Positions 8,017 through 25,247 of a stretch of 33,208 bases of DNA are shown here, one piece after another. This DNA comes from Frankiales bacterium (GTDB taxonomy: Bacteria; Actinomycetota; Actinomycetes; Mycobacteriales; Jatrophihabitantaceae): the NCBI GenBank assembly GCA_025966315.1, contig JAOPUZ010000035.1:1-33208 (forward strand). Direction: 5' to 3'. The first letter of the stretch is position 1; each line of letters begins with the position of its first letter. Made by a program: the position numbers and the translations under genes. Below the pieces are notes generated by a model. That model did not search any database, was not told where the DNA came from, and was given only the letters and a program-made list of their open reading frames with translations.

Positions 8017-9012
8017 GTGCCTCGTGCTCTGATCACCGGCATCACCGGCCAGGACGGGCTCTATCTCGCGGAGCTGTTGCTGAGCAAGGGCTATGAGGTG
8101 TTCGGCTTGATCCGCGGCCAGAACAACCCGAAAGCCGCGCTCGTCGCCAGCATCGTGCCCGAGGTGAAGGTGCTCGCCGGCGACCTCACCGACCTGTCGA
8201 GCCTGCTTCGCGCGCTTCGTACCTCGCAGCCGGATGAGGTCTACAACCTCGGCGCGATCAGCTTTGTCGCCTACTCGTGGGAGCAGGCCGCGTTGACCAC
8301 GGACGTGACGGCCAAGGGCGTGCTGAACATGCTCGAGGCCGTACGCCTGTACTGCGGCGATGACATCAGCAAGGTCCGCTTCTATCAGGCGTCCAGCTCG
8401 GAGATGTTCGGCAAGGTGCAGCACGTACCGCAGAGCGAGTCGACGCTGCTGTGGCCGCGTTCGCCGTACGGCGTGGCCAAGGTTTTCGGTCATTACATGA
8501 CGATCAACTACCGCGAGTCCTACGGCATGCATGCGTCCAGCGGCATCCTGTTCAATCACGAATCACCCCGGCGCGGTCCGGAATTCGTCACTCGCAAGGT
8601 CTCGCTCGGCGTGGCCGAGATCGCGGACGGCCGTCGCGAGAAGTTGATCATGGGTAACCTCGACGCCAAGCGTGACTGGGGCTTCGCCGGCGATTACGTG
8701 GACGCCATGTGGCGCATGCTGCAGCAGCCGGTGGCCGATGATTTCGTTATTTCCACGGGTGAAACTCACTCGGTGCGCGAATTGCTGAGCGCCGCGTTCG
8801 CCGTGGTGGGCATCGAGGACTGGCAGCCGTACGTCGAGATCAACCAGGACTTCCTGCGCCCGGCCGAGGTCGACCTGCTGATCGGTGATGCCAGCAAGGC
8901 CCACGACAAGCTTGGCTGGAAACCCACCGTTCCGTTCGAGCAACTGGTGCGCATGATGGTTGAATCCGATGTGGCTGCGCTCGCCGGTGACCGCCGGGGT
9001 ACGCCCCGTTGA
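8017..9012 (+). CDS. gmd: GDP-mannose 4,6-dehydratase
   Basis: Converts GDP-D-mannose to GDP-4-keto-6-deoxy-D-mannose, the precursor of GDP-rhamnose, GDP-fucose and related sugars. The protein is a 331-residue extended short-chain dehydrogenase. It has the nucleotide-binding [15 protein letters not shown] (8-22), the catalytic SSSEMFG (126-132), Tyr151 and Lys155 in SPYGVAK, and the family signature [17 protein letters not shown] and [16 protein letters not shown]. The GTG start at 8017 follows aggggaaaagg. The next gene is a paralogue overlapping by four bases. No GDP-4-keto-6-deoxymannose reductase or GDP-fucose synthase is recognisable in the window, so the final sugar is not determined. 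Confidence 0.92.
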
Positions 9013-9956
9013 CACCGCCTCGACGCGCATTGGTCACCGGAGTTACCGGCCAGGACGGCTGGTATCTCTGCCAATTGCTGCGCGAGCACGGCTTCGAGGT
9101 GTTCGGACTGGTGCGGCCGGGCGATTCGGCCGCGGTTCCACCCGAGGTGAGCGAACTGGCGGGTGACCTGCGCGACGAGAAATCACTGGCCGCGGCCCTG
9201 GAGCTCGTTCGGCCGGATCACGTCTACAACCTCGCCGGGCTGTCGTCCGTCGCGGCGTCTTGGCATGACCCGGCCACCACCAGCGAGGTGAACGGCACCG
9301 GCGTGCTGCGGCTGCTGCACGCGGTCCGCGAATTCGCCGACCGGACCGGGGTCAGCCCGCGGGTAGTGCAGGCCAGCAGTGCCGAGATCTTCGGACGGGC
9401 ACCGGCGCCGCAGAACGAGCAGACGCCGATCGCACCGATCAGCCCGTACGGCGTGGCCAAGGCCGCGGCCCACCATGCGGTACGCGTCTACCGGCAGGCG
9501 GGCGTCGACGTGCGCTCCGCGATCCTCTACAACCACGAATCGCCCCGTCGCCCGCCGACCTTCGTGACGCGCCGGATCACGCAGAGCGCGGCCCACATCA
9601 AGCTCGGACTGATCGACTCGATCGCCTTGGGAAATCTCGACGCCCGCCGGGACTGGGGTTTCGCCGGTGACTACATGGCCGCGATGTACCTGATTGCCGA
9701 GCATGATGTTCCCGATGATTTCGTGGTCGCCACCGGGGTCAGCCATACCGTCGCGGAGTTCGTGGCCGCCGCCTTCGCCCAGGTCGGCATCGAGGACTGG
9801 CAGTCGCGGGTGACCGTCGATCCGGCGCTGACCCGGCCGGCCGACGTTTCCGAACAACGCGGCGATGCCGGCAAGGCTCATCGCGAACTGGGCTGGCAAC
9901 CGTTGGTGTCCTTCGACGAGCTGGTCGGCCAGATGGTCGAGGCCGACCTCGGGTGA
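9009..9956 (+). CDS. GDP-mannose 4,6-dehydratase paralogue (GDP-sugar SDR)
   Basis: The 315-residue protein follows the first gmd motif for motif: [23 protein letters not shown], the SSAEIFG active-site loop, Tyr147 and Lys151 in [24 protein letters not shown] and [16 protein letters not shown]. It is shorter in the region after the first beta-alpha unit. All catalytic positions I can check are kept, so it is either a second active dehydratase or has shifted to the reductase step or another GDP-sugar; motifs alone do not decide. The start is a TTG overlapping the previous stop (TTGAC), and the end overlaps the next GTG (GTGA), so all three genes look translationally coupled. Tandem duplication followed by divergence is the simplest origin. 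Confidence 0.85.
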
Positions 9957-11332: not shown

Positions 11333-11348
11333 CGGCGACGCAACGAAG

Positions 11349-14300
11349 CTATCCGGCGCTGCCGACCCGATCCTGTGTCGCCAGCTGAAGAACGTCAGCC
11401 AGAATCGCTCGCGCGGCCTGTGGCGAGAATCGATCGGCAATCGTTGCCTTTGCTGATTCTGAAATTCGACGCCACATCGAATCTTCGGTAAGCAGCAGCA
11501 CAATATGGGCTGCGAATTCCGCGGCACCGTCCGCGGCTAGCACGTCCTCGCCAGGCACTAGGTGCATGCCCTCGGTAGCGAGCGTGGTGGCAACGGTGGG
11601 TACGCCATGGCTGATCGACTCGCCGATCTTGCCCTTGACTCCCGCGCCGAATCGCAGCGGTGCAGTGGCCACCCGACATTGGGCGTACATCGCGTTGAGG
11701 TCGCTTACGAATCCATGGATGCGAACGCCTGGCCGCGCCAGGTCCTCGATCTCCTTGGTCGGATTGCTGCCCACCACGTGCAGGACGGCGTCCGGTACTT
11801 GCTGGTGCACCAGGGGCATGATCTCGTTGACGAGCCAATTCGCGGCGTCCCGGTTCGGTGGATGATCGTACGAGCCGACGAACAACACGCCCGCCCGCCC
11901 GCTCAGATCGGCCTTGACCCAGTCGATCTCGTGAATGATCGACAGCACCCGGACGTCGGCGTCAGGCACCAGCTCGCTCAACAGCTTCTGTTCGACATCG
12001 GAAACCACAAAGGTGAGGTCGCAGGTTCGAGCCAGACCCAATTCCAGCTCGCGCGAGGTGTTTGCTGTCCGCTGGAGTGCGTAGGCGGTTTCGCTGTCCC
12101 CCTCATCCATGAACAGCTTCGCCTGTCGCTCGAGCCGCAAGAAGTGAACGTCGACTGTGTCGTAGGCGATGACACACTTGGGTGCGAGTCGCCGCAGCTC
12201 CTCCAAAAAGCGCCAGGCAACGTTTGGCCGAGAAAGTAGCGTGAAGCGCAACTCGCTACCGAGTTCGCGAATAAACTCCAGCTGACGTCCCCATGACGTC
12301 AGGACGGTGACACCCAGCTGACGTAGTTCTTCGGTGTACGGTTCCGGCTCCGCGTCATTGGCTGGGAAGAACACCACACGACAGCCCAGTCCCACGAGTT
12401 GACGAATGACTTGCGACATTCTCGCCGACCCGGCGTCCATGTCAGGCATTGGCACCTTATGGTCGAGCACCAACACCAGCGGGCCGTCCTGGTCAAGCGG
12501 GTCACGCTGGCGGGCCAACCACAGGTTGGCGGGATTGGGTCCTGAGAACTGCTGGGTCAACTCGGCAGCCCACTTCTCCGCGAAGACTTTGCGGTTCAGT
12601 TCTTGATACCGCTTGATCCCAGATGAGCTGTCAGTGCCGTTCGAAATCCCCTCATGGTGTACGACGACAGCGCGCGGCTGGACGATGACGCGGTGCCCGG
12701 TCGCGCGAATCGCAAAGGCAAGGTCTGCGTCCTCGTAATAGGCCGGAGCGTATCGCCGGTCGAAGCCACCGACCTGCTCGAACAAATCTCGCCGCACGAG
12801 AATGGCGGCGCCCGACACGTAGTCCACATCGCGCAGGACGTTCACCGCGGGATCGTTGCTGTCACCGTTGCGGCCGTAATTCCACCCACTGGCGTCCGAC
12901 CAAATGATGCCGCCCGCCTCCTGCAGCGATCCATCCGGGTATATCAGCTTTGCGCCCACCAGGCCGATGCGGTCGTCGCTGTTCGCCGTCTCGACCAGGC
13001 GTTCGACCGCATCGGGCAACACCTCGGTGTCGTTGTTGAGAAACATGATCAAGGCTGCCCGTGCACTGGCCGCGCCAAGGTTGCAGGCACCGACAAAACC
13101 CAGGTTGGTGCCGGTTGACACCAGCCGCACGCCGGGGCATTCCGCTATCCGAGCGGCTGAATTGTCGGGCGAGGCGTCGTCGACGACGATGACCTCAAAC
13201 GGCACCGAGATGAAGGCCCCGGCAATGCTGCGCAAGCATTGTTGGGTGTAGGACCACTTGCCGTGCACCGGTATGACGATGCTGACCAGCGGCGCTTGGC
13301 TGGTCATGATGGTGACGGGGCCGAGATGGGGACGCTGTACGAGGGCGGCTTGCGGCGAAGCGCCACCGCGACCCATCGCTGATTCGTAGGCCCTGCGTAG
13401 CGGTGTCCCGCGTGGTGCGTAACGCTCGATCGTGTTCCGGTACGTCCGCAAGGCTCGTTGTACGGGCGCGGACACCTCATCGGTTACTGCCTGCAACTCA
13501 ATCGCGCGCTGCTCGGCAACGGCGGCTTGGCGCGAGCTGACCAGGATGCTCTCTCTCAGCCATTCGACCATGGCAGCTTCACGCTCAGCCGCCCGCGTCT
13601 GCAAATGGAGCTGCGTGGAGAGCCGAGCCAGTTCCCCGCGCGTTTCGTCGGCTTCCGCGCGAGCCGCCTTAGCTGTTTCCTGCTCGCGGACCCGCAGCGA
13701 TTCAACACGACGGAGTGCAGACTTCAACTCCTCGACTTCGCCACGCTCGATCTCGCGCTGATCCAGCAGTCGCGATTGATCCGCTCGGAGCATTTCGATC
13801 TCCGCGCGTTCGACGTCATGCTGGTTTAGCAGCCGATCACGCCAGCCTCGCAATTCGTCGCGTTCTTGCGCGACCGGCGTCAACTGCGATTGCAGAAGCG
13901 TGAAGTCGGGGTCAAGCATGATCGCCGCGGCTGGCGGCGACTTCAGTGGCTCATCGGAGGCGAGCGCGACGAGGTATGTGTGCGGCAAACCCGGCGCGAT
14001 GGTCCAGCCGTCCTCGACACGATCTAGCGTGTGCGTGACGACATCACCGGGGGCGTCGAGGTTCTTCGCCGGGTAGATCACCGAACCCATCGCCATGCTC
14101 TGGTTGAACAGCACTTGGTACCCGAAATTGCGGGCCAGCAGCTCGTAAAGTTCCGTTCCCGTGAGTTCCTTCACGTGGAATGGGTTGTCATTGCCATGAT
14201 CATGGCTGTAGATCTCGACGTCTGGGGTGCTGATGATCAGCACTCCGCCAGGGTTGAGTCGACTCTTGATCAAGCTAAGCACGGCGTTGTGGTCGCCAAC

Positions 14301-14654
14301 ATGCTCAATCGCCTCAAAACACACCACCAGATCGAATCGATCAACGTCCGCCAGCAAGGCTGGGTCGGTCATCGATCCAACGGCAAAGCTGAGCTTGTCG
14401 GATCCGTAATTGGCAATGGCGTGGTCAATAGATGGAGCGTCGATGTCGACGCCGACCACTTCGGACGCGACCTCGGCTAGCAGCGAGCTGCCGTACCCCT
14501 CGCCGCAGGCCAAGTCGAGCACCCGCTTGCCCTCTGCAAGACCGCGCGCAAGTGCGTAGCGGTGGTAATGCTCGTAGGCGACCTGCACGTCAGGCGTCCA
14601 CGGAACGCAGCGTTCCCCCGTCCATTCGATCCCCCGGTCCAGAGGTTCGCCCAT
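11349..14654 (-). CDS. Fusion protein: SAM methyltransferase, coiled coil, GT2 and GT4 glycosyltransferases
   Basis: A 1101-residue multidomain protein. Residues 40-235 are a class I methyltransferase (VLDLACGEGYGSS, then VGVDID and FDLVVCFEAIEHVGDHNAVL). Residues about 255-395 are heptad-like and charged (repeated QRE/ERxEV units), a coiled coil. Residues 455-675 are a GT2 domain: VSIVIPVHGKW, VVDDASPDN (Asp492/493), FLNNDTEV (Asp542) and YYEDADLAF (Glu641, Asp642). Residues 724-1095 are GT4-like, with VLVLDHKVPMPDMDAGSARM and the C-terminal FVGSYDHPPNRDAANWLV, RFGAGVKGKIGESISHGVPTVAT and TEGM. The ATG at 14654 follows aaaggcggag; an upstream in-frame extension lacks this support. It probably assembles or caps a glycan in the cytoplasm, methylation possibly setting chain end. 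It is the only minus-strand gene inside the glycan locus apart from the closing methyltransferase. Confidence 0.88.
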   Translation of the reverse strand: MGEPLDRGIEWTGERCVPWTPDVQVAYEHYHRYALARGLAEGKRVLDLACGEGYGSSLLAEVASEVVGVDIDAPSIDHAIANYGSDKLSFAVGSMTDPALLADVDRFDLVVCFEAIEHVGDHNAVLSLIKSRLNPGGVLIISTPDVEIYSHDHGNDNPFHVKELTGTELYELLARNFGYQVLFNQSMAMGSVIYPAKNLDAPGDVVTHTLDRVEDGWTIAPGLPHTYLVALASDEPLKSPPAAAIMLDPDFTLLQSQLTPVAQERDELRGWRDRLLNQHDVERAEIEMLRADQSRLLDQREIERGEVEELKSALRRVESLRVREQETAKAARAEADETRGELARLSTQLHLQTRAAEREAAMVEWLRESILVSSRQAAVAEQRAIELQAVTDEVSAPVQRALRTYRNTIERYAPRGTPLRRAYESAMGRGGASPQAALVQRPHLGPVTIMTSQAPLVSIVIPVHGKWSYTQQCLRSIAGAFISVPFEVIVVDDASPDNSAARIAECPGVRLVSTGTNLGFVGACNLGAASARAALIMFLNNDTEVLPDAVERLVETANSDDRIGLVGAKLIYPDGSLQEAGGIIWSDASGWNYGRNGDSNDPAVNVLRDVDYVSGAAILVRRDLFEQVGGFDRRYAPAYYEDADLAFAIRATGHRVIVQPRAVVVHHEGISNGTDSSSGIKRYQELNRKVFAEKWAAELTQQFSGPNPANLWLARQRDPLDQDGPLVLVLDHKVPMPDMDAGSARMSQVIRQLVGLGCRVVFFPANDAEPEPYTEELRQLGVTVLTSWGRQLEFIRELGSELRFTLLSRPNVAWRFLEELRRLAPKCVIAYDTVDVHFLRLERQAKLFMDEGDSETAYALQRTANTSRELELGLARTCDLTFVVSDVEQKLLSELVPDADVRVLSIIHEIDWVKADLSGRAGVLFVGSYDHPPNRDAANWLVNEIMPLVHQQVPDAVLHVVGSNPTKEIEDLARPGVRIHGFVSDLNAMYAQCRVATAPLRFGAGVKGKIGESISHGVPTVATTLATEGMHLVPGEDVLAADGAAEFAAHIVLLLTEDSMWRRISESAKATIADRFSPQAARAILADVLQLATQDRVGSAG

Positions 14655-14865
14655 ATGGACTCCGCCTTTCTGCGGTCGAGTGCGGTCCGGTAGCAGGATA
14701 CGTCCACGGTGCGCTTTTTGAGCAGTCGGCAGAGCCGACGAACGACACAAAGTTGGCTATCACCAAGAGCGCGTCGGGCCGCGGCACGACAGGATGGCGT
14801 GGTGCGGTTGCTACCATTGCGCGGTTCGTGCATCGGTGGTCGCGTTCGTCTGGAGGGCTGGTCGA
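14655..14865. promoter_or_regulatory. Divergent upstream region with palindrome
   Basis: This 211-base gap separates the fusion gene from the DegT operon and must carry both promoters. It contains a perfect inverted repeat GTCGGC-AGA-GCCGAC (14725-14739). The run of T lies before it on the plus strand, so it is not a terminator for either gene and may be an operator. I cannot assign -35/-10 boxes with confidence. Confidence 0.35.
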
Positions 14866-15972
14866 GTGTCCTCGCCTGTACCGGTAAGTGATCCGTCCCG
14901 GGCCGTGACCCAGCATCGTGACGAGCTGACGGCAGCAATGGGCGCCGTTCTCGACAGTGGCTTCTACATCATGGGACAGCAGCACGGGGGCTTTGAAGCG
15001 GAATTCGCAGAATTGCTCGGTGTGCAGCACGTCATCGGTGTAGCGAACGGTACCGACGCGCTGGAACTCGCCCTACTGTCGGTGGGTTGCGAACGCGGCG
15101 ACAGGGTGATCACGGCGGCCAATGCCGGGGGTTATGCGACTGCGGCTTGCCTCAAGCTAGGGGCGCAGCCGTACTACGTCGACGTCGATGAAGCGTCACT
15201 GCTGTTGACCGAATCCGGGCTCGCCGCAGCCTTCAACGCTCTGCCGGCCCCACCGCGCGCGGTCATAGTGACGCACCTTTACGGCGCGATGGCGGACGTA
15301 GCCGCGATCGCAACGCTGTGCCGGCGGTACGAGGTAGCCCTGATCGAGGACTGCGCCCAAGCCGCTGGCGCCCGCCTGGATGGGCGCTGCGCGGGCAGCT
15401 TCGGTGACGTAGGCACCTTCAGCTTCTACCCGACTAAGAATCTGGGCGCACTCGGCGATGGCGGGGCGGTCTGCACGAATGAGCCGGGCCGAGCCGAGCA
15501 GTTGAAGAAGTTGCGCCAGTACGGCTGGGGCTCGAAGTACGACGCGGTCATCCCGGCGGGCCGCAACAGCCGGTTGGATGAACTCCAAGCGGCCGTCTTA
15601 CGGACGCGAATTCCACGCCTCGACGCGGATAACGAACGCCGGCGAGGCATCCATGATCAGTACTCGCGGGCGGTGAAGGATGGTCCACTGCGGATGGTCC
15701 ATCAGTCGGACTCGTCGTTCGTCAGCCATCTCGCGGTGGTGCTTGCGACTGACAGGACTGCGGCGCGGTCCGCGCTGCACCAGGCGGGTGTCCGAACCGA
15801 CGTTCATTACCCGACGCCCGACCATCGTCAGAAGATCAGCTCCGATCGCCTGAGCGCGCTGCGCCTGCCCGTGACGGAGTGGGCGGCCGAGCACGTTTTC
15901 ACTGTGCCGTGCTTTCCCGAACTTTGCGACGAGGAGATCGCCCGGGTGTGCGATGCGCTATCTGCCCTATGA
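14866..15972 (+). CDS. DegT/DnrJ/EryC1-family sugar aminotransferase (FdtB/QdtB-like)
   Basis: PLP enzyme that transfers an amino group to a keto-sugar nucleotide. The 368-residue protein has NGTDALELAL (61-70) for phosphate binding, the LIEDCAQAAGA block (159-169) with Asp162 facing the pyridine nitrogen, and the Schiff-base Lys191 in FSFYPTKNLGALGDGG. The GTG at 14866 lies 9 bases after ggagg and gives the normal family N-terminus; an earlier in-frame ATG (14794) would add an unusual Cys/Trp-rich stretch. Three genes downstream lies an acetyltransferase/3,4-ketoisomerase fusion, so the likely substrate is a dTDP-3-keto-6-deoxyhexose and the product a dTDP-3-amino-3,6-dideoxyhexose (Fuc3N or Qui3N type). 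That substrate is inferred from context. Confidence 0.85.
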   Translation: MSSPVPVSDPSRAVTQHRDELTAAMGAVLDSGFYIMGQQHGGFEAEFAELLGVQHVIGVANGTDALELALLSVGCERGDRVITAANAGGYATAACLKLGAQPYYVDVDEASLLLTESGLAAAFNALPAPPRAVIVTHLYGAMADVAAIATLCRRYEVALIEDCAQAAGARLDGRCAGSFGDVGTFSFYPTKNLGALGDGGAVCTNEPGRAEQLKKLRQYGWGSKYDAVIPAGRNSRLDELQAAVLRTRIPRLDADNERRRGIHDQYSRAVKDGPLRMVHQSDSSFVSHLAVVLATDRTAARSALHQAGVRTDVHYPTPDHRQKISSDRLSALRLPVTEWAAEHVFTVPCFPELCDEEIARVCDALSAL

Positions 15973-16957
15973 CTCGCGCGAAGTCGAGTTGACCGTGCCC
16001 AAGGAGCGGGCGGACGGACTCGGTATCCGATTTTCGGTAGTGGTACCGGTGTACGGCAATGCGGCGACGTTGCCCGAGGTCATCGACCGACTTTCTGACA
16101 TGGCTCGACGACTGCCGGGAGCTCTCGAGGCCGTCTTCGTCGTAGACGGGTCGCCCGACGATTCATTGGCTTTGCTGCGGAAGCTGCTGCCCGACGCAGG
16201 CTTGCACGCCCAGTTGCTTGTGCATTCGCGCAACTTCGGGAGCTTCGCCGCCATTCGCACTGGGATGGCCGCTAGTCGTGGAGAATTCGTCGCGGCCATG
16301 GCGGCCGATCTGCAAGAGCCACCAGAACTGGTCGAAAAGTTCTTCGAGCTCCTGGTGACCGGAGACTACGACGTGTGTGTCGGAGTGCGGTCCGGCCGAG
16401 CCGATCCGGTGCTGAGCGGAGCTCAGGCCAGGGTGTTCTGGGCGCTCTATCGACGGTGGGTTCATCGCGACATCCCGGCCGGCGGTGTCGACATCTTTGC
16501 GTGTAATCGCCTGGTGGCCAGCCGCCTGAAGGAGATGGCTGAATCCCATTCCAGTCTGGTCGGCCTGCTCTATTGGCTCGGATTCAGGCGGGTAGAGGTG
16601 CCGTACGAGCGACTGGCCCGCACCGAAGGCAAGAGCGGATGGTCGACGCGACGCAAGGTCCGATATCTGCTCGACAGCGTCTTTTCTTTCACCGACTTGC
16701 CTATAAGTGTGCTGGTCGGGGTGGGCGCCATCGGCGTAATACTGTCCACCCTCGCGTCGATGGTTACCGTCGTCGCACGCATCGCGGGACTGATCAGGGT
16801 GCCGGGGTATACGGCGCTGATGCTTGTCCTATTACTGTCGGCCACCAGTATCTTGCTCGGTCTGGGAATCGTCGGCTCGTATGTGTGGCGCACTTATGAG
16901 AACAGCAAGCAGCGCCCCCTCTCGGTCGTCATGATCCACGAAACGGTGGATCCATGA
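15953..16957 (+). CDS. GT2 polyprenyl-phosphate glycosyltransferase (GtrB/CsbB-like)
   Basis: Predicted to move a sugar from its nucleotide to polyprenyl phosphate on the inner face of the membrane. The 334-residue protein has a GT-A domain with FSVVVPVYGN (27-36), VFVVDGSPDDS (61-71, Asp65) and AADLQEPPEL (117-126, Asp119), then GGVDIFACNR and GKSGWSTRRKVRYLLDS. Two C-terminal membrane helices follow (about 252-275 and 288-312), the layout of GtrB, CsbB and ArnC. The first Asp of the usual DADLQ is Ala here. The ATG start lies 20 bases inside the aminotransferase gene; GTG at 15995 is an alternative and would remove the overlap. The stop overlaps the gtrA-like start (ATGA). Confidence 0.88.
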   Translation: MRYLPYDSREVELTVPKERADGLGIRFSVVVPVYGNAATLPEVIDRLSDMARRLPGALEAVFVVDGSPDDSLALLRKLLPDAGLHAQLLVHSRNFGSFAAIRTGMAASRGEFVAAMAADLQEPPELVEKFFELLVTGDYDVCVGVRSGRADPVLSGAQARVFWALYRRWVHRDIPAGGVDIFACNRLVASRLKEMAESHSSLVGLLYWLGFRRVEVPYERLARTEGKSGWSTRRKVRYLLDSVFSFTDLPISVLVGVGAIGVILSTLASMVTVVARIAGLIRVPGYTALMLVLLLSATSILLGLGIVGSYVWRTYENSKQRPLSVVMIHETVDP

Positions 16958-17367
16958 GTCAGACTATGACGCCGGTGTGGCGCGGGCAGCTGGTTCGATT
17001 CATCGCTGTTGGTGGCTCGAATACGCTGGCGACCTACGCGATCTTCGTTTTGTTGTCCCTGTGGTTCGACGCCCGTCTCGCCTACTCGATCGCATTCCTG
17101 ATCGGCATCGTCTACAGCACGGCTCTGTCGTCCCGATGGGTGTTCACCGGCGAACGGTCGGCGGCTCGACTCGGCGCTTTCGTCTCGTGGTACGTGGCCG
17201 TGTGGCTAGTTGGCATCTCGCTGGTCTGGCTGTTCGGAAGCGGCGATTTCGTACATCGAGTTGTTGCCGCCGCGTTGGTGCTCATGATCACCGTTCCGTT
17301 GAATTTCCTAGGCGGACGCCTCGTATTGGGACGCGCGATCGCCGCGTCAGGGAGCGGCAACCTATGA
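16954..17367 (+). CDS. GtrA family membrane protein, putative polyprenyl-P-sugar flippase
   Basis: The 137-residue protein has four membrane helices (about 12-37, 43-60, 74-94, 101-120) and the family landmarks RFIAVGGSNT near the N-terminus, SRWVFTGE after helix 2 and PLNFLGGRLVL at the end. GtrA/GtcA proteins are thought to move polyprenyl-phosphate-linked sugars across the membrane. It overlaps both neighbours by four bases (ATGA at each end), so it is made together with the GtrB-like enzyme before it and the sugar-biosynthesis fusion after it. Confidence 0.88.
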   Translation: MSQTMTPVWRGQLVRFIAVGGSNTLATYAIFVLLSLWFDARLAYSIAFLIGIVYSTALSSRWVFTGERSAARLGAFVSWYVAVWLVGISLVWLFGSGDFVHRVVAAALVLMITVPLNFLGGRLVLGRAIAASGSGNL

Positions 17368-18305
17368 CCTTCTTTCTCCATCCACAGGGCTTGTGCGAGA
17401 GCACCGAAGTGGGCGAGGGCACACGTATCTGGGCGTTTGCGCATGTCCTGGAAGGCGCGGTCGTCGGCGCCGATTGCAACGTCTGCGACGGGGTATTCAT
17501 CGAGGGAGGTGCCTGGGTAGGCGACCGGGTAACGCTCAAGTGCGGGGTTCAACTGTGGGATGGCGTCACGTTGGGTGACGATGTTTTCATAGGTCCCAAT
17601 GTGACTTTCACTAACGATCCCTTTCCGCGGAGCAAGCAATACCCGCAGGAATACCTGCGCACGCGCGTCGACCAGGGGGCGTCGGTCGGTGCGAACGCGA
17701 CGTTGCTGCCCGGGATCCGAATCGGCCGCCAAGCAATGATAGGTGCGGGCTCGGTGGTGACGAAGGACGTGCCGCCCAACGCGATCGTCGTCGGAAACCC
17801 GGCTCGCATCGTCGGCTACACCGAGAACCCGGTCGAGTCGGCCGCGCTGACGCCGCGTGCTGTCACGGACGCGGCGATCGGTAGCAAGGTGCCAGGCGTG
17901 CGGCTGATCGAACTCGCTCTGGCCACGGACATGCGGGGCAGTCTGGTTGCGACGGAACTCGAAACGGACCTGCCCTTCGTGCCGCGCCGTACTTTTGTCG
18001 TTTTCGACGTGCCGTCGAAGGACGTTCGGGGTGAGCACGCGCACCGGGTGTGTGAACAGGTGCTGGTCTGCGTACGCGGGTCGGTCGTAGCGCTGGTCGA
18101 CGACGGCCGTGTGCGACAACAATTCACGCTAGACAGCCCGAGACTTGCGTTGTACATACCCCCGATGATTTGGGGCACTCAATATCATTACTCGGCTGAC
18201 GCCGTACTGCTCGTGTATGCCTCTCATCCATACGACAAAGACGACTACATACGTGACTACGACGACTTTATGCTGTTGAGCAAGGCGTCGCCTCTTGATG
18301 CCTAG
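17364..18305 (+). CDS. Bifunctional sugar N-acetyltransferase / 3,4-ketoisomerase (FdtD/WxcM-like)
   Basis: Two enzymes in one 313-residue chain. Residues 1-155 form a left-handed beta helix of hexapeptide repeats with FTNDPFPRS (82-90), GIRIGRQAMIGAGSVVTKDVPPNAIVVGNPARIVG (117-151), as in WlbB/FdtC acetyltransferases. Residues 178-305 are a cupin ketoisomerase of the FdtA/QdtA type: DMRGSL, VRGEHAHR with His225 and His227, and IPPMIWGTQYHYS through PYDKDDYIRDYDDF. Known fusions of this kind convert dTDP-4-keto-6-deoxyglucose to the 3-keto isomer and later acetylate the 3-amino sugar. With the DegT aminotransferase this supplies the two missing steps to a dTDP-3-acetamido-3,6-dideoxyhexose. 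Whether the galacto or gluco product forms cannot be read from the motifs. The start overlaps the gtrA-like stop. Confidence 0.9.
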   Translation: MTFFLHPQGLCESTEVGEGTRIWAFAHVLEGAVVGADCNVCDGVFIEGGAWVGDRVTLKCGVQLWDGVTLGDDVFIGPNVTFTNDPFPRSKQYPQEYLRTRVDQGASVGANATLLPGIRIGRQAMIGAGSVVTKDVPPNAIVVGNPARIVGYTENPVESAALTPRAVTDAAIGSKVPGVRLIELALATDMRGSLVATELETDLPFVPRRTFVVFDVPSKDVRGEHAHRVCEQVLVCVRGSVVALVDDGRVRQQFTLDSPRLALYIPPMIWGTQYHYSADAVLLVYASHPYDKDDYIRDYDDFMLLSKASPLDA

Positions 18306-20526
18306 GGCCAGCTGGCGGTCCGCGATCGAAGGGCTTTCCGGCCGGATTACTGTCCGATTCAGCCTCGTCGGGCCGTTGGCTGTGCTCGTCATCGCAATGC
18401 AGGTGACCGTATTCTGGGGGTACTGGTCAGGGTCGAAGACGCCACCGTGGGACTTCTACGGCGGCTATGGGTCCAACGCCTTCGCGTGGTGGACTGACGG
18501 CAGCTTCTTCCACCCGCAAGAATGGATGCCATACACATTCTCGGGTTTCCCGTCGAGTCTCGATTGGCAGAACAGTTCGTGGTATCTGCCGGTTGGAATC
18601 GCATCATTGTTCCGGCCCTATGACTTGCAGTGCGCGGCCGCTGTGTCGGCATTGCACGTCGCTCTGGGTGGCGTCGGAATAGCCGTACTGGCTCGACTGT
18701 GGCGGCTACCGAACGCCTCGGCGCTGTTCGCGGCAGCGGCGTGGAGTTTTGCGAGCGGCTTCTATGCCAACGCTGAACACGTCGACATCGTCCGTGGGTA
18801 TGGCTGGGCTCCGTGGATACTCGCGCTGCTGTCTCCGGGGTGGAGGTGGCGCCGCCCGTGGGCTGTCCCGGTCGGTGCACTGATCGTCTGGCAATGCGTA
18901 GTCGGGGTTTATCCCGGGATCCTTGTCGCTGCTGTGTATTGCGGCCTCGGCTGGATGGCCGCAGGGTGGATTCACGAGCGCCGTATTGATCGCGTCCAAG
19001 TCAGCGGAATTGTCGCCGCCGGCCTGGGCGGTTTATTGCTTGCCGCCCCGAAACTGCTTCCTGCCGCGTTAAATCATTCACAATTACCCAGCCATAGCGC
19101 CAACACGTCGGTGCTCACCTGGCGGCTGTTCGGTACCGCATTCTTTAACTACGCCAGTCCGTCGTTGCCTAACGACATCAGCATGCGGTCCTTCTTCCTG
19201 CCGATCACGGTATTCGTCCTAGTGCTCTTCCTCAGATCTGTGGTGCCCCTGGCTCGGGCTGCACTGGCCGCGCTGGGCATCGCGGTCGTGTTGGGCCTGC
19301 CGTGGTGGCCGTGGAACGGTGTGGTGTCGAGTCTGCCCGGGCTCGGGCTCAGCCGATTCCGGATGAGCGACTTCAAGGTCTTTCTGCTGTTGGCACTGGT
19401 CCTGCTGGCGGCATGCGCGCTGCCCGAGCTGGTCAACCCGCCGCAGGTAAACCGGCCATCGCCACGCAGCGCGGCACTGCGAGTCTCGGCCCTGACTGTC
19501 ATCGCCGCCGCGCTGGCGTTCTCCGGGCCGTACTCCGGTGCGGCGCGCGTGGTGCCGTTCTTGATCGTCCTTGTCCTGGGCGGATTCCTGATCGCGCGGT
19601 CCTTCGGCCGGGTGGTGCCTTCTCGACGCGGGGTCGCTGTCGGCGCGATCCTGCTGACCCTCGCCTCGGGCTTGCAGTGGGCCTTCACCGAAACGCTGCC
19701 CTGGCGGGTGGACCGAGCCGTCGCCGAGAAGGCGACCTACGGTGCGACCGTCGACTCGTTGATCAAGGAGCGATCTACCCGCACGGGCGCACAGCGTCCC
19801 GGCCGACAGGCAGCGCCCCCGGCCGCCGGGGCGAACGTCTTGCAGTCGCAGTCGTTCAACCGTGGCGCCTATTCCGCAACGTCGTACGTCGGGGGCTACG
19901 TCAATTTGAAGGGCTCGCCGACGGCCGACCATCTGCTGGCAGGCCTGACCGACCCGGTCTGGGGGCAGCCGCTCAACAGCTTCCTGGCGGCGCCGGGGAC
20001 CGCGTTGGCCACCGCCCCTGGCGCGCACGTCACACCCACCGACCTCACCGCCTGCTCCGCCACCGCGCAATGTGGTGCCCGCGCCACGGTCATCCCGGCC
20101 GGGTACACCCCCGGGCACCTGAGTTACCGCGTGTCTGCCAACGAAGAGGCGACCTTGTTGTTGAATGAACCCGATTACGCCGGGTGGCAAGGCTCGATCT
20201 GCGCCGCTGACGGTTGCCGGGCTCGCTCGGTCGTATCAGGGGACTTCGACCTCGTGCAGGTCACTGTGCCGGCCGGCACCTGGACGTTGCACCTGAACTA
20301 TGGTGCGCCGGGCCGTGAGGCGGCCTGGGTACTCTTCTGGCTTGGCCTCCTGTTTTCTGTGGGGGTTGCCGCGGTGGCTGGTCGCCCTCGGCAGCCGTCT
20401 GTCACGTCGGCCCCGATGTCGATGACCGAGAAAGGACGACCGGATGAGTCTCGACGAGATCCTGGTGGCCGCCGACAAATGGCGGGCCAAGCTGCTCGAT
20501 CTCAAAGCGGCGAACCCGCCGACTGA
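18298..20526 (+). CDS. YfhO-like GT-C membrane protein
   Basis: The 742-residue protein has about a dozen membrane segments up to residue 465, an extracytoplasmic domain (about 470-670), one more helix (about 674-695) and a basic tail. The first outer loop has TPPWDFYGGYGSN with Asp52 and, further on, QEWMPYTFSGFP. The outer domain contains LLNEPDYAGWQGSI, like the end of YfhO proteins. In Bacillus and Listeria, YfhO-type proteins are the outer-face transferase of a three-part system with a CsbB-type enzyme and a GtcA flippase; relatives of both lie just upstream. The ATG at 18298 overlaps the previous gene by 8 bases; TTG at 18295 is possible. The last 27 codons overlap the next gene by 83 bases. 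Confidence 0.72.
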   Translation: MPRASWRSAIEGLSGRITVRFSLVGPLAVLVIAMQVTVFWGYWSGSKTPPWDFYGGYGSNAFAWWTDGSFFHPQEWMPYTFSGFPSSLDWQNSSWYLPVGIASLFRPYDLQCAAAVSALHVALGGVGIAVLARLWRLPNASALFAAAAWSFASGFYANAEHVDIVRGYGWAPWILALLSPGWRWRRPWAVPVGALIVWQCVVGVYPGILVAAVYCGLGWMAAGWIHERRIDRVQVSGIVAAGLGGLLLAAPKLLPAALNHSQLPSHSANTSVLTWRLFGTAFFNYASPSLPNDISMRSFFLPITVFVLVLFLRSVVPLARAALAALGIAVVLGLPWWPWNGVVSSLPGLGLSRFRMSDFKVFLLLALVLLAACALPELVNPPQVNRPSPRSAALRVSALTVIAAALAFSGPYSGAARVVPFLIVLVLGGFLIARSFGRVVPSRRGVAVGAILLTLASGLQWAFTETLPWRVDRAVAEKATYGATVDSLIKERSTRTGAQRPGRQAAPPAAGANVLQSQSFNRGAYSATSYVGGYVNLKGSPTADHLLAGLTDPVWGQPLNSFLAAPGTALATAPGAHVTPTDLTACSATAQCGARATVIPAGYTPGHLSYRVSANEEATLLLNEPDYAGWQGSICAADGCRARSVVSGDFDLVQVTVPAGTWTLHLNYGAPGREAAWVLFWLGLLFSVGVAAVAGRPRQPSVTSAPMSMTEKGRPDESRRDPGGRRQMAGQAARSQSGEPAD

Positions 20527-21193
20527 CTTCAGTTGGTACGGCTATGACATCCTGGCCAACACCGCTCACCTCGACGGGCTGCTGTCCGGTGCTGATCGCG
20601 ACGTCTTCGACACGATCGACGGTGGGTCGATTGCCGATATCGGCGCAGCGGATGGTGATCTCGGGTTTCTGTTCGCAGACCTCGGCTTCGACGTCGACGT
20701 CGTCGACTGGCCGTCGACGAACTGGAACGGCATGCGAGGGGCGAGGGCGCTGCGGGACCTGCTCGGTTCGCCCGCGACTATCAATGAGGTGGATCTGGAC
20801 TCGCAGTTCGATCTGCCGCGCGAGCGGTACGACATGGTGCTGCTGCTGGGCATCCTTTATCACCTGAAGAACCCGTACTACGCGCTTGAATACATCGCCC
20901 GCCACAGTCGGTACTGCCTGCTCAGCACGCGGGTTGCCCGGCTGGTGCGCGCCGATGGCACCGTCATCGACGGTGAACCAGTGGCTTATCTGCTCGACCC
21001 GGCCGAGTGCAATAACGACGCCACCAACTTCTGGATCTTCACCCTTGCGGGACTGCATCGGCTGGCGCAACGCTGCGGCTTCGTGGTGAAGGCGTCGTAC
21101 ACAGTCGGCGATCTGACCGCATCCAACCCGCAGGATCCCGATCATGATGAACGGGCCTTCATGTTGCTGGAGAGCACGGTGTACCAACGCTGA
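20444..21193 (+). CDS. Class I SAM-dependent methyltransferase
   Basis: The 249-residue protein carries motif I IADIGAADGDLGFLFADLG (63-81), an acidic motif II (VDVVDWPST) and LLLGILYHLKNPYYALEYI, a post-I pattern seen in CmoB-like and sugar methyltransferases. The ATG follows aaagga by six bases, which supports this start even though it lies 83 bases inside the previous gene. In this locus it most likely methylates a sugar, but acceptor and position are unknown. Confidence 0.82.
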   Translation: MSLDEILVAADKWRAKLLDLKAANPPTDFSWYGYDILANTAHLDGLLSGADRDVFDTIDGGSIADIGAADGDLGFLFADLGFDVDVVDWPSTNWNGMRGARALRDLLGSPATINEVDLDSQFDLPRERYDMVLLLGILYHLKNPYYALEYIARHSRYCLLSTRVARLVRADGTVIDGEPVAYLLDPAECNNDATNFWIFTLAGLHRLAQRCGFVVKASYTVGDLTASNPQDPDHDERAFMLLESTVYQR

Positions 21194-21196
21194 ACG

Positions 21197-21655
21197 GTGA
21201 GGGTCGGACTCGGGATGGGCTGGACGGAAGGCGGGACTGAAGCGGTGCAGGGCAGATTTCGCCGCCGGCTGTTCGCCGCCGAGATTGCGGTGCTGCTGCT
21301 AGTGCTGCTCTGCGCGTGCGGCGGCAACCCGGCAATCCCGGTGCCAGTCATCACCGTGTCTGCCGCTGGCTCGTCGACCGCCAAACCCGGCATGGCGCTC
21401 ACCGTGCTCGAACGGCGCAGCGGTTGCGGGAAGGCTCCGTACCAGACCTACGTCGCCTGGCGGGTGAGCGGACCGCAACCGCCGCCAGTCACGGTTCGGG
21501 TGATGGCGCCCGATGGCGTCGAATTTGTGGAAGCTTCGACGGCTACCGGCAGCGCGTTGACCGGGCCGTGGGTACGAGCCGGGTTGAAATTCTTCTTAAC
21601 GAACGGCGATGGCGCCGTGCTCGCCTCAGCTAGCGCCCCGGACGACCGGTGCTGA
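21197..21655 (+). CDS. Putative lipoprotein of unknown function
   Basis: A 152-residue protein with basic residues (RFRRR), a hydrophobic stretch and LLCAC at 38-41, a plausible lipobox with Cys41 as the modified residue. The mature part is about 110 residues, beta-rich in appearance, with Cys pairs that could form disulfides (RSGCGK and the last residue). I do not recognise a family. Starts are uncertain: GTG 21197, ATG 21215 or GTG 21245, the last giving a shorter and more usual signal sequence. It sits between a methyltransferase and a GT-C-like gene and overlaps the latter by seven bases, so it is likely an extracytoplasmic partner of the glycan pathway. Confidence 0.6.
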   Translation: MRVGLGMGWTEGGTEAVQGRFRRRLFAAEIAVLLLVLLCACGGNPAIPVPVITVSAAGSSTAKPGMALTVLERRSGCGKAPYQTYVAWRVSGPQPPPVTVRVMAPDGVEFVEASTATGSALTGPWVRAGLKFFLTNGDGAVLASASAPDDRC

Positions 21656-23370
21656 CCAATAGCGCCGACGTCAGCGTGCCGCGACTGTCGGGCCTGAGTG
21701 GGCGCATAGCCACCGCCCGAAGACTGTTGCCGAGTGGTTTGGCGATCGTCGTGCCCCTGGTCGCGATGGCGTGGGCGCTGTGGTGGGACTGGGGTCGTCC
21801 GGGTCTTTATATGGACGCCATCAACCCGGAATATCTGGGTCAGTGGGTGCTGCACGGCAGTCCGAGCACCCACTCGCTGATGCCGGGCAACGCGCTGTTC
21901 GGCCGACTTCCTGTATTCACGGGCAGCGTCTATCACGGCAGCACGCAGCTTTACTTTTCCCTTCCGTTCGTGGCCGTCTTCGGCTTCAATCTCGCAGCCT
22001 GGCGTGTGGTTCAGTTCGTCGCTGCCGGCATCATGCTCTTGCTTGTCGTGCGTCTGATCAGCAATACGCTCGGTCCGGCGCGGCGCCGCGGGGCCGCTGT
22101 TTTGTCATTGCTGGCCGCTCTCGGTCTAGTTGCCGATCCGGCCTTTTCGTTGGCACTCCGGACGCAGGCGTACAGCTGTCTGTTCCCGATGATGTTCCTG
22201 CTGGGTTCACTTGTGGTGCTGCGGTTGGGCACCGACACTGATCCTGGGTGGCGGCGACGGGTGGCGGCCGGAGTCCTCTACGGCCTCGCCGCGTTCAGCT
22301 ATTTCATCTTTCTGCTTTTCGCTCCGGCGATGCTGTTCATCCTGTGGCGATCGGCGCATCCAGCGCCGCTGCTGCGTCGTTTGCGGTGCCTAGTTCCGTG
22401 GCTCGTAGGCACGATCATCGGATACTCGCCCTTCATCCTCGGCATGTTCCTGATCGCTCGTGCGCTCGGCGGTATCAGCCAGGCTCGGCAATATCTCGCC
22501 GGGCTGTCCGACACGCTCCACGTAGGCCCGCAGACAACCGGATTTCTGCCCCGAATCGAAGCGCCGATCAAGAATTTTCACTACATGATTAACGGCGAGT
22601 GGGTTTCGCTGATGATCCTGGCCAAGCCGGTCAGCGTCTGGGGTGACGTGCGAGCCGCTGTCGGGCTGACTCTGATCGTGGTGGGATTCCTGCTCAGTCT
22701 CTGGCGCCGCTTCGACGCGCGATACCGGCACGCTCAGCAGGCCGTGGTCGCGCTGCTGGTGTCATTCATGGTTGTGTCGGTGCTGTTCGGCGATCGACTG
22801 GCTGGGCATCATTTCTCGGCGTTGATGCCGCTCTGGTACCTGGCCATTGCGCTTTCCCTGGCGATCATCGCCGAAGTCGTGCGCGGCCTCTGCGCGTCAC
22901 GACTCGAGCTTCGGGTCGCGAACCGGATTGCGTGGTCGGCGATAGTTGCGGTCACTGCTGGCATAGCCCTGTGCGGGCTCGGGAGTCAGGTGGCCGCCCA
23001 CCGTGAGATCAGGCGCTCGGGGGGCGCGTTGCTCTACTCTCAGGCAGTCACCCAACTGGCGGTGTCGATAGAAGACCTGCCTACTCATAGCACGGTCTAC
23101 ACACCGGACTGGGGTTACGGCATGGAGTTGGAATTTCTAGCCGGCGACAAAGCGAATGTGGTCTTTGCTAACGGCACGCCGGCCCGCGTCCACGCCTCAG
23201 CCTGCGTCAACCGACCTGTCGCGATCATCGCTACCTTCCCGTCTGCCCTCGATGCCGCGGCACTGGCGGCTAAGTCGATGACCGCAGCGCAACCGCGGCA
23301 ACTTTGGTTGAACGACGCCGGTGTGCCGCTGATCCAGGTCGACTGGTTCATGTCGGACCGGCCTTGTTGA
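21649..23370 (+). CDS. GT-C-like polytopic membrane protein, putative glycosyltransferase
   Basis: The 573-residue protein has about ten to eleven membrane segments and a C-terminal extracytoplasmic part. After the first helix it reads GRPGLYMDAINPEYLGQWVLHG, with Asp56 and Glu61 in the loop where GT-C enzymes hold their catalytic acid. The C-terminal part includes HSTVYTPDWGYGMELEFLAG, a Rossmann-like remnant also seen in membrane mannosyltransferases. It starts with GTG overlapping the lipoprotein stop. Substrate is unknown; context points to a polyprenyl-linked sugar donor. It is unrelated in motif detail to the YfhO-like protein in the same operon, so the two probably do different transfers. 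Confidence 0.65.
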   Translation: MLTNSADVSVPRLSGLSGRIATARRLLPSGLAIVVPLVAMAWALWWDWGRPGLYMDAINPEYLGQWVLHGSPSTHSLMPGNALFGRLPVFTGSVYHGSTQLYFSLPFVAVFGFNLAAWRVVQFVAAGIMLLLVVRLISNTLGPARRRGAAVLSLLAALGLVADPAFSLALRTQAYSCLFPMMFLLGSLVVLRLGTDTDPGWRRRVAAGVLYGLAAFSYFIFLLFAPAMLFILWRSAHPAPLLRRLRCLVPWLVGTIIGYSPFILGMFLIARALGGISQARQYLAGLSDTLHVGPQTTGFLPRIEAPIKNFHYMINGEWVSLMILAKPVSVWGDVRAAVGLTLIVVGFLLSLWRRFDARYRHAQQAVVALLVSFMVVSVLFGDRLAGHHFSALMPLWYLAIALSLAIIAEVVRGLCASRLELRVANRIAWSAIVAVTAGIALCGLGSQVAAHREIRRSGGALLYSQAVTQLAVSIEDLPTHSTVYTPDWGYGMELEFLAGDKANVVFANGTPARVHASACVNRPVAIIATFPSALDAAALAAKSMTAAQPRQLWLNDAGVPLIQVDWFMSDRPC

Positions 23371-23485
23371 GTTCCCATGAACCGCTCAATGCCGTGAGCC
23401 GCTCGTTGGAGTGGCCGGACCCGCCTTCGCTTTCGCCCGACGACATCGAGGCATTCCGGCGTCACGACGGACCACCATATTCATC

Positions 23486-24499
23486 ATGTGCATCGAGGCA
23501 CGTGAGTTGAAACGCGGCATCCGCAAAGGACTCCCCGCTTTGGTCGGCTTGGTTGTCCTGGCGGCCGGGGCCTGGTTGATCTATCGCGACCGGTCGGGCT
23601 TGGCGGCTGCGTACGACGATGTCGGCGCCGGCTCGCTCTTGATATCGGCACTGTTAGCAGTGCTCGGAACAGCCTGCATTGAGCGCATCTGGGCGTCAGT
23701 TCTACGCGGACTGGGTACCAGAGCTCCTGCTCGGCAGGTGGCCGGGGTGTTCTTTGTCAGTCAACTCGGCAAGTACCTGCCGGGCTCAGTGTGGCCGGTC
23801 CTGGCGCAGATCCAGTTCGGGCGGCGTGTCGGGGCGCCGCGGCGAAATATGCTGGCCGCCAATCTGATCATGCTTGTCGTCGTAAGCGTAAGTGGTTTGC
23901 TGTCCTCGGCAGTGCTGCTTCCGTGGGCGGCACGCGCGGGTCTGCACGGCTTGGGCTGGGTATTCGTGCTGCTCGTGCCTCTGGTCGCGCTCCTGCATCC
24001 GCGTGCCGTACCTGCTTTGCTGGATGCAGCGTTTGGCTTGCTGCATCGAGAACCGCTGCGGCTCCGAGTCGACGGCCGTCGGATGTGGGCGGCGATGGGT
24101 TGGGGATTCCTCACGTGGGTGTTACTCGGTGCCCACCTGCTGGTAATGACGCGCGCGCTCGGCGCTACCGGAGCGGACGCGATCGGCGCGGCGATTGGCG
24201 GGATGGGACTCGCCTTCGCCGCTGGCCTGCTGTTCATCCCGGCGCCGGCTGGAGCTGGACTGCGCGAGGCCGTATTGGTGGCCACCTTTGGCCCGGAGAT
24301 TGGAACGACCAACGCCTTGGCGGTGGCCGTCGCCTCGCGGGTGTTACTCCTCGTTGCCGATGTGACGCTTGCTCTCGCCGGGGCGCTCGTCGGGCGGACC
24401 GGCCCCGCCCTATCTGCTGGGGATACGCCGCGATCGTCTGGGGTGGGGAACGAAACTGAGGTGGTCGACACCCGAGGTTCGGTCAGGGACGAAGACTAA
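23486..24499 (+). CDS. UPF0104 / lysylphosphatidylglycerol synthase-type membrane protein
   Basis: The 337-residue protein has about eight membrane segments and the family hallmarks SQLGKYLPGSVWPVLAQI in the first third and LLFIPAPAGAGLREAVLVA in the last third. It lacks the soluble C-terminal aminoacyltransferase domain of MprF. Stand-alone members often sit in glycan loci and are suspected of lipid or lipid-linked sugar translocation (AglD-like in archaea). The ATG at 23486 is chosen because homologues begin near the LKRGIRKGLP stretch; an in-frame GTG at 23411 would add 25 residues. The 115 bases upstream break the otherwise tight operon spacing. The last 17 bases overlap the convergent methyltransferase gene. 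Confidence 0.78.
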   Translation: MCIEARELKRGIRKGLPALVGLVVLAAGAWLIYRDRSGLAAAYDDVGAGSLLISALLAVLGTACIERIWASVLRGLGTRAPARQVAGVFFVSQLGKYLPGSVWPVLAQIQFGRRVGAPRRNMLAANLIMLVVVSVSGLLSSAVLLPWAARAGLHGLGWVFVLLVPLVALLHPRAVPALLDAAFGLLHREPLRLRVDGRRMWAAMGWGFLTWVLLGAHLLVMTRALGATGADAIGAAIGGMGLAFAAGLLFIPAPAGAGLREAVLVATFGPEIGTTNALAVAVASRVLLLVADVTLALAGALVGRTGPALSAGDTPRSSGVGNETEVVDTRGSVRDED

Positions 24500-25190: not shown

Positions 25191-25247
25191 CGTGGTCCCC
25201 ACAGTCGAATGGCTTACCCGCACCTGGCCTCCACGTCAGCATTCGCT

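Follow-up and report, generated by a model that had tools for sequence, protein, structure and literature searches.

A cassette of a Frankiales bacterium probably used for the lipid-linked transfer of the amino sugar Fuc3NAc to a surface glycan

Genes of the cassette and their products

A run of five overlapping genes (14866-20526), predicted to make an amino-deoxysugar and to transfer it by way of a lipid-linked intermediate, was analysed in a 33,208-nucleotide stretch of DNA from a Frankiales bacterium (assembly GCA_025966315.1, contig JAOPUZ010000035.1). This stretch, called the window below, is one complete contig (G000:C50) of a 4.56-Mb genome in 77 contigs. The five reading frames are all open, have the same direction and each overlap their neighbour (Table 1). 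Starts were picked from the frames and overlaps, the first gene beginning with GTG preceded by a GGAGGG stretch. Because of the domain scores and the identical order of the five genes in another genus (locus L073, below), the run is beyond what chance would give. The co-directional run does not stop at 20526 but reaches about 24499. More glycan genes, outside the five-gene run, start at 8017; there, two GDP-mannose 4,6-dehydratase (GMD)-like genes and a membrane protein gene overlap one another (8017-11332).

Table 1. Features of the cassette and of the run that continues it (positions in the window; GT2 and GT4, glycosyltransferase families 2 and 4; GT-C, glycosyltransferase of the C fold)
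Feature	Position	Strand	Basis
DegT-family sugar aminotransferase (WxcK/FdtB/QdtB-like)	14866..15972	+	PF01041, 300 bits
Polyprenyl-phosphate glycosyltransferase, GT2 (GtrB/ArnC/WxcL-like)	15953..16957	+	PF00535, 75 bits
GtrA-family small membrane protein (WxcN-like), presumed flippase	16954..17367	+	PF04138, 54.3 bits (cut-off 26.1)
Fusion of hexapeptide N-acetyltransferase and FdtA 3,4-ketoisomerase	17364..18305	+	PF00132 and PF05523 (167 bits)
Membrane protein, most likely YfhO-type GT-C, presumed acceptor transferase	18295..20526	+	profile-profile match
GDP-mannose 4,6-dehydratase-like	8017..9012	+	TIGR01472, 398.7 bits, just below the cut-off of 415
Second GDP-mannose 4,6-dehydratase-like	9009..9956	+	TIGR01472, 289.6 bits
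Membrane protein of predicted ArnT (GT-C) fold, 459 residues	9953..11332	+	predicted fold
Methyltransferase-GT2-GT4 fusion	11349..14750	-	PF13489, PF00535, PF13692
Class I methyltransferase	20444..21193	+	PF13489, 30.6 bits (cut-off 27)
Small protein	21197..21655	+	no Pfam match at E<=10
Large hydrophobic protein, possible additional GT-C enzyme	21649..23370	+	Pfam and NCBIfam, nothing over cut-off
LPG-synthase-type membrane protein	to 24499	+	continuation of the run

The aminotransferase is probably of the type that acts on C3, as judged by its higher scores to C3 than to C4 structures. In the PDB it matched WlaRG (5u1z, 220.6 bits), DesV (2oga, 211.1), QdtB (3frk, 204.1; presumably also a C3 enzyme) and WbpE (178.3) better than ArnB (164.5), PerA (111.2), WecE (71.9) and PseC (71.3). 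The grouping of DesV, WbpE and WlaRG as C3 enzymes and of ArnB, PerA, WecE and PseC as C4 enzymes follows an excerpt of PMC7725333. The highest-scoring entry, 7b0d (246.3 bits), carries the deposited name glutamine-scyllo-inositol transaminase and is uninformative for the class.

The fusion protein aligns end to end with PDB entry 4mzu (372.5 bits), which places it among the FdtD/WxcM fusions. Entry 4mzu is deposited as a WxcM-like protein; we take it to be FdtD, which shares the same two-domain fusion over its full length, and assume that it makes the galacto product. After 4mzu and the fusion 4zu4, the closest PDB match was FdtA (117.8 bits). The ketoisomerase domain scored 72.6-78.9 bits with QdtA and 74.2 bits with WlaRA, deposited as a TDP-fucose ketoisomerase; since WlaRA scores as low as QdtA, the ketoisomerase score alone does not settle the product. 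Residues R192, H226 and H228 were invariant in all 81 aligned fusions, and 4mzu has the arginine as well. This position presumably helps to set the product. In a tree of the 81 sequences the window fusion grouped, with weak support, with eight actinobacterial rows.

The best PDB match of the GT2 protein was sll0501 (5ekp; 141.7 bits, residues 24-326 of 334), which we take to be GtrB, and ArnC came next. Both the GT2 domain and the membrane region were aligned end to end with 5ekp, as expected of a GtrB-type protein. Apart from the GtrA gene of the run, three more GtrA-family genes lie elsewhere in the genome (G000:C53:283333, C74:16835 and C27:33964); other lipid-linked sugar systems are therefore likely to be encoded there.

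The fifth protein is missed by Pfam and was placed by profile-profile comparison only. Pfam gave nothing at E<=0.001, with one irrelevant match below cut-off (E 0.6), and the YfhO model PF09586, whose curated cut-off was thus not reached, gave no match even at E<=10. For comparison, loci around relatives of the fusion gene were collected from species genomes, the best 80 of 347 confirmed relatives being kept, so that the set represents the nearest loci and not a random sample. Homologues of the fifth protein were present in 2 of these 80, in Agromyces (L041, 41% identical) and Cryobacterium (L073, 40%). A profile of the three sequences matched three YfhO proteins in hhalign with a probability of 97.3 (E 2.6e-11) over the N-terminal half, and its three other comparisons as well as three reversed-sequence controls reached at most 1.6, the YfhO set being left unreversed. 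From this match and the low controls, a divergent GT-C protein of the YfhO type is the most likely identity of the fifth protein. Hence the profile searches, which could have assigned it to a family other than glycosyltransferases, did not do so.

Of 396 phylum genomes, 41 had matches to the same profile, that of the window included. From other phylum genomes 19 matched loci were fetched, and seven of their proteins were scanned as far as the stretches reach: three (L130, L132, L134) were over the YfhO cut-off, L128 was below it with a YfhO score of 22.4, L142 matched PMT_2, L131 had an irrelevant match below cut-off and L140 had none. Pfam also assigned three of the ten large proteins examined at module loci to YfhO (two in L015, one in L040). 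Searches with the single protein found only its own genome in the family sample (1 of 24); in the class sample (2 of 394) one other genome was added, by a weak C-terminal match. A scan of viral contigs gave nothing useful. The AlphaFold model, made from three sequences, was unusable (pLDDT, the predicted local distance difference test, 40.5). Compared with one another in hhalign, the fifth protein, the protein at 9953-11332, the Xanthomonas proteins in fifth position and large proteins of Dactylosporangium reached probabilities of at most 0.5. Another protein of the genome (L005, G000:C20:43697-43840) passes the YfhO cut-off of 28.5 bits with its C-terminal end (28.3 bits, or 28.7 with neighbours).

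Distribution of the arrangement

An earlier note on this DNA, made from the sequence alone, had regarded the interleaving of sugar biosynthesis and transfer genes as distinctive. This was not upheld. Within 6.5 kb of the fusion gene, 49 of the 80 loci carry the aminotransferase and the GT2 gene, and 37 carry these together with GtrA and a large membrane protein, which makes the full set the commonest context of the fusion among these nearest loci and equivalent to the wxcK-L-M-N-O arrangement of Xanthomonas. Frames on either strand were counted here as large membrane proteins if they were open for 420 residues or more and had six or more hydrophobic stretches; some of them may be spurious. Of the 80 loci, 17 are cut off less than 4.5 kb from the fusion, on one side or both. 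The order aminotransferase-GT2-fusion-GtrA is that of many proteobacterial loci (read off the table, uncounted). GtrA lies between GT2 and the fusion in Blastococcus (L017, L019), Agromyces and Cryobacterium.

The five-gene order recurs in another actinobacterial genus. Cryobacterium lactosi (L073) has the same five families in exactly the window's order, as well as an ArnT-fold gene, and in Agromyces (L041) the five are rearranged with the YfhO-type gene first. The YfhO-type protein is included in both (40-42% identical to that of the window); unlike in the window, a GMD-like gene was not seen nearby in either. Besides the window's own genome, only G019 had a full-length fusion match in the family sample (n = 24). 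By its matching coordinates G019 was taken as the same record as L031, a Pseudonocardiales metagenome bin, which carries aminotransferase, GT2 and GtrA genes, opposite in direction, beside the fusion. A limited literature search found no published account of such a module in Actinobacteria, though absence from print is not claimed.

Comparison with known systems

The core of the module is a known and widespread one, akin to the side-branch module of Xanthomonas. In Xanthomonas hortorum the genes run wxcK-wxcL-wxcM-wxcN-wxcO, followed by rmd and gmd, with rml genes near (PMC12573098, in part). As in that module, an aminotransferase, a polyprenyl-phosphate GT2, an FdtD/WxcM fusion and GtrA occur together in the window; the first three have the same order, GtrA and a large membrane protein stand alongside, and a gmd gene lies in the same region. 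The proteins of Xanthomonas nasturtii (L056), where the wxc positions were assigned from gene order, are 47.5% (wxcK position), 48.7% (wxcL) and 60.7% (wxcM) identical to those of the window, and its wxcN-position protein is 25% identical to GtrA, a weak resemblance. The differences are that GtrA precedes the fusion in the window and follows it in Xanthomonas, that the large membrane protein belongs to another family by profile, that the rml genes, near neighbours in X. hortorum, are on other contigs in the window genome, that the window has an additional ArnT-fold GT-C gene, and that its host is an actinobacterium, for which a lipopolysaccharide (LPS) acceptor cannot be assumed.

Evidence from mutants is available for X. 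campestris B100, whose O-antigen is a rhamnan with branches of N-acetylfucosamine (FucNAc) (PMC4878081, excerpts). Insertion mutants in wxcK and wxcN had no detectable FucNAc in their LPS according to the abstract, with traces mentioned for wxcN in the discussion, and rhamnose was up 3.17-fold in the wxcK mutant and 5.01-fold in the wxcN mutant. At the wxcO position X. campestris strains carry different open reading frames (PMC2238763, in part). Such differences fit a variable terminal transferase, and given these strain differences the gene at this position may not be a defining feature of the module; the fifth protein of the window may have an analogous role.

A further comparison is with the three-part systems of Firmicutes (CsbB-GtcA-YfhO), which consist of a glycosyltransferase of the A fold working on polyprenyl phosphate, a GtrA-type flippase and a GT-C transferase. 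All three parts are matched in the window module. In contrast to it, the Firmicutes systems carry glucose, galactose or N-acetylglucosamine, and dedicated nucleotide-sugar genes are not listed in the set in the part of the source consulted for both points (PMC8035078).

A second GT-C protein with a predicted ArnT fold

The protein encoded at 9953-11332 had no Pfam or NCBIfam match at E<=0.001. Its AlphaFold model, made from seven sequences, had a pLDDT of 80 and a predicted template modelling score (pTM) of 0.83. The best match in VIA-align was ArnT bound to undecaprenyl phosphate (5f15; Z 18.2, 305 residues, root-mean-square deviation 3.8 A), exceeding the Z level of about 13 of which VIA-align warns for helical proteins. 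Among the other rows we recognised what we take to be further GT-C proteins, namely PMT, oligosaccharyltransferase, ALG, Emb, Aft and PimE. Foldseek matches were weaker: ALG9 was first (E 2e-4), and PglB and AglB followed at E<=0.001, with TM scores of 0.40-0.43, ArnT having E 0.026. By this model the protein has the GT-C fold over most of its length.

In Actinobacteria the link of the ArnT-fold gene to the module is strong, although not absolute. Of the 14 actinobacterial fusion loci, 8 have it within a distance of 10 kb from the fusion; all 8 belong to the 12 loci with aminotransferase and GT2. The other 66 fusion loci gave two weak matches (42 and 24 bits). The profile used was built from the window protein and six of the eight loci later matched; the window protein alone had found all eight. 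Module loci without the gene are L031, L041 (with about 5.4 kb of contig before the fusion), L044 and L068. At E<=1e-15 the profile matched 2 of 394 genomes in the class sample, the window's own and G413, both near a complete module; in G413 the ArnT-fold gene, GtrA, GT2, aminotransferase, fusion and a large membrane frame lie within about 7.5 kb. With the own genome excluded, the remaining match is thus one of two fusion genomes among 393, the other being G403, the sole other class genome listed with a full-length fusion match, which has no ArnT-fold gene and, in the 19.9 kb fetched, lacks both the aminotransferase and the GT2 gene. The class and phylum searches scored two to five candidates per genome, so that distant members may escape. 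In the family sample (n = 24), where every candidate was scored with this profile, the gene was found in the window's own genome only, and G019 (82% complete) has the module without it. In Blastococcus saxobsidens (L017:4655-7247, minus strand) an ArnT-fold gene overlaps a second GT2 copy that scores 418 bits to the GT2 of the window, which suggests that the two proteins may work as a pair.

We tentatively propose, as a possibility rather than as the expected outcome, that the protein at 9953-11332 is the first member of an unnamed GT-C family of ArnT fold which in Actinobacteria is devoted to polyprenyl-phosphate-Fuc3NAc, and that the module holds two GT-C proteins, the ArnT-fold protein being the constant transferase and the YfhO-type or other large protein its variable partner.

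Precursor supply and chain-building genes

The earlier note had placed rmlA and rmlB outside the cluster, and both were indeed located on other contigs of the genome, with scores above their curated cut-offs: RmlB on G000:C53 (404 bits, cut-off 365.1) and RmlA on G000:C59 (455.2 bits, cut-off 360.65). The possibility that they are missing from the genome altogether was thereby rejected. That the two GMD-like genes serve as RmlB was rejected as well, their scores being 398.7 and 289.6 bits for gmd and 83.9 and 74.8 bits for dTDP-glucose dehydratase. Calling the run self-contained, as had been done, was not appropriate either: the precursor genes lie elsewhere, and the cassette also holds GMD-like genes, the methyltransferase-glycosyltransferase fusion and a second GT-C gene.

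The first GMD-like protein matched GDP-mannose dehydratases in the PDB with up to 361.9 bits, and the second scored 275.7 bits with the GMD 1n7g versus 115.8 bits with 2pk3, a GDP-4-keto-6-deoxymannose reductase (RMD). In its glycosyltransferase part the 11349-14750 fusion shares about 42% identity with proteins encoded at the module loci of Stenotrophomonas (L086) and Lysobacterales (L040), which makes the fusion a candidate for a chain-building glycosyltransferase.

Proposed function and alternatives

The cassette probably makes dTDP-linked 3-acetamido-3,6-dideoxygalactose (Fuc3NAc) and, outside the membrane, adds this sugar to a surface glycan as a side branch. RmlA and RmlB, whose genes are on other contigs, would supply dTDP-4-keto-6-deoxyglucose, which the FdtA domain of the fusion would convert to the 3-keto galacto form; the aminotransferase would then put an amine on C3 and the hexapeptide domain of the fusion would acetylate the amino sugar. 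The GT2 protein would transfer the sugar to polyprenyl phosphate, GtrA would flip the lipid-linked sugar, and a GT-C enzyme, either the YfhO-type or the ArnT-fold protein, would move it to the acceptor. The acceptor is less certain; by analogy it may be a 6-deoxyhexose polymer made by the GMD-like genes and the methyltransferase-glycosyltransferase fusion, a rhamnan being suggested by the presence of GMD-like genes and by the FucNAc-branched rhamnan of Xanthomonas. The overall scheme of the earlier note is in line with these assignments: the families named there for the five overlapping genes were supported by the open frames, by Pfam and PDB matches and, for the fifth, by hhalign, and an amino-deoxysugar, its transfer to polyprenyl phosphate, flipping by GtrA and a GT-C step are all backed by homology, Fuc3NAc being likelier than the gluco form (Qui3NAc), which had been named beside it.

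Several observations weigh against this reading. The best NCBIfam model of the aminotransferase is PseC, a C4-type enzyme (194 bits for a cut-off of 423.5), although no model passes. Pfam does not assign the homologues of the fifth protein in L041 and L073 to YfhO, and the fifth protein itself is not detectably related to wxcO, the hhalign probability being 0.2 against five Xanthomonas proteins at that position; since GtrA is only 25% identical, the correspondence with Xanthomonas is strong for three genes and weak for a fourth. In the excerpts of PMC4878081 the authors state that polar effects in the mutants cannot be excluded. As the second GMD-like protein is not closer to RMD, GDP-D-rhamnose synthesis is incomplete as seen. 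Among the 14 actinobacterial fusion loci, 11 gave no GMD-like match, and three (L018, L044, L068) matched a broadened GMD profile only, with 31-49 bits to the second GMD-like protein of the window, so that the rhamnan part of the comparison may not transfer. Finally, no exporter was found among the window proteins scanned.

The likeliest rival is Qui3NAc as the sugar. Both pathways use identical enzyme types, and the ketoisomerase bit scores do not sort cleanly by product. An excerpt of PMC7725333 moreover lists WlaRG, one of the top aminotransferase matches, under Fuc3NAc/Qui3NAc. That the machinery carries Qui3NAc is nevertheless unlikely in view of the Xanthomonas counterpart, which gives FucNAc (PMC4878081, in part), and of the ranking of the fusion, closest to 4mzu/4zu4 and then to FdtA. 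The invariant Arg192, shared with 4mzu, points the same way, if its role in setting the product is as assumed above. A very improbable variant is that the aminotransferase and the fusion act on GDP-4-keto-6-deoxymannose from the GMD-like genes to give a GDP-linked 3-acetamido-3,6-dideoxymannose. The location of two such genes within the cassette would agree with it, and none of the window proteins scanned is a dTDP-sugar 4,6-dehydratase by curated cut-off; but homologous modules occur in actinobacterial loci that have no GMD-like gene in view, as is the case for 11 of the 14 fusion loci, the solved relatives of both enzymes work mostly on dTDP-sugar pathways, and RmlA and RmlB are present in the genome.

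The remaining alternatives concern the acceptor. The fold matches of the ArnT-fold protein include protein O-mannosyltransferases and oligosaccharyltransferases, and a mannosyltransferase-like GT-C enzyme could put the sugar on secreted proteins instead of a polysaccharide. We consider this quite unlikely, rather less probable even than Qui3NAc as the sugar, because ArnT itself was the best VIA-align match, the glycosyltransferase fusion and GMD-like genes share the cassette, and the counterpart in Xanthomonas decorates a polysaccharide (PMC4878081, in part). Decoration of a small secreted natural product is also conceivable in an actinobacterium. Sugars derived from dTDP-3-amino-3,6-dideoxy precursors occur in actinobacterial antibiotics; a polyprenyl-phosphate GT2, GtrA and a GT-C protein are, on the other hand, membrane glycan machinery, and the window proteins scanned included neither a polyketide synthase nor a peptide synthase, which leaves this explanation scarcely credible.

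If the cassette attaches Fuc3NAc to a surface glycan as proposed, an O-antigen branching module with mutant support in Gram-negative bacteria would be carried over to Actinobacteria, and a small set of genes can be named whose loss should abolish one rare sugar. The ArnT-fold family offers a concrete candidate for the transfer step, the more interesting question. Surface glycans of this kind can act as receptors: wxcK and wxcO mutants of X. hortorum resist a phage (PMC12573098, in part), and Streptomyces umbrella toxins distinguish species by teichuronic-type glycans (PMC13274773, in part).

Neighbouring genes and chromosomal site

To the right of the five genes, the class I methyltransferase would belong to the run, judged by its overlap. 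A scan for regulatory signals gave one promoter-like site (1.9 expected) and nine terminator-like sites (8.5 expected).

The cassette is flanked by leuA and an aldehyde dehydrogenase gene, and the content of this site varies among the five informative genus relatives. The gap between the two genes is nearly empty in G009 (0.36 kb) and G012 (0.25 kb), and in G010, G013 and G015 it measures about 4.7, 10.6 and 8.2 kb with other content; in G014 the contig starts 2.4 kb before leuA, and G008 and G011 were left out. Because G015, alone among the stretches fetched, has counterparts of the genes at 23411-24499 and 24483-25223 (57 and 51% identical) beyond the aldehyde dehydrogenase gene, outside the gap, these two genes are possibly part of the surroundings, which would put the exchangeable part at roughly 8017-23370. 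The pattern looks like that of a swapped surface-glycan locus, with gene exchange resembling serotype variation. The GC content per kb is 61-68% in the cassette, compared with 68-72% over the leftmost 6 kb of the window, 64-67% at leuA and 65-70% rightward, a modest contrast.

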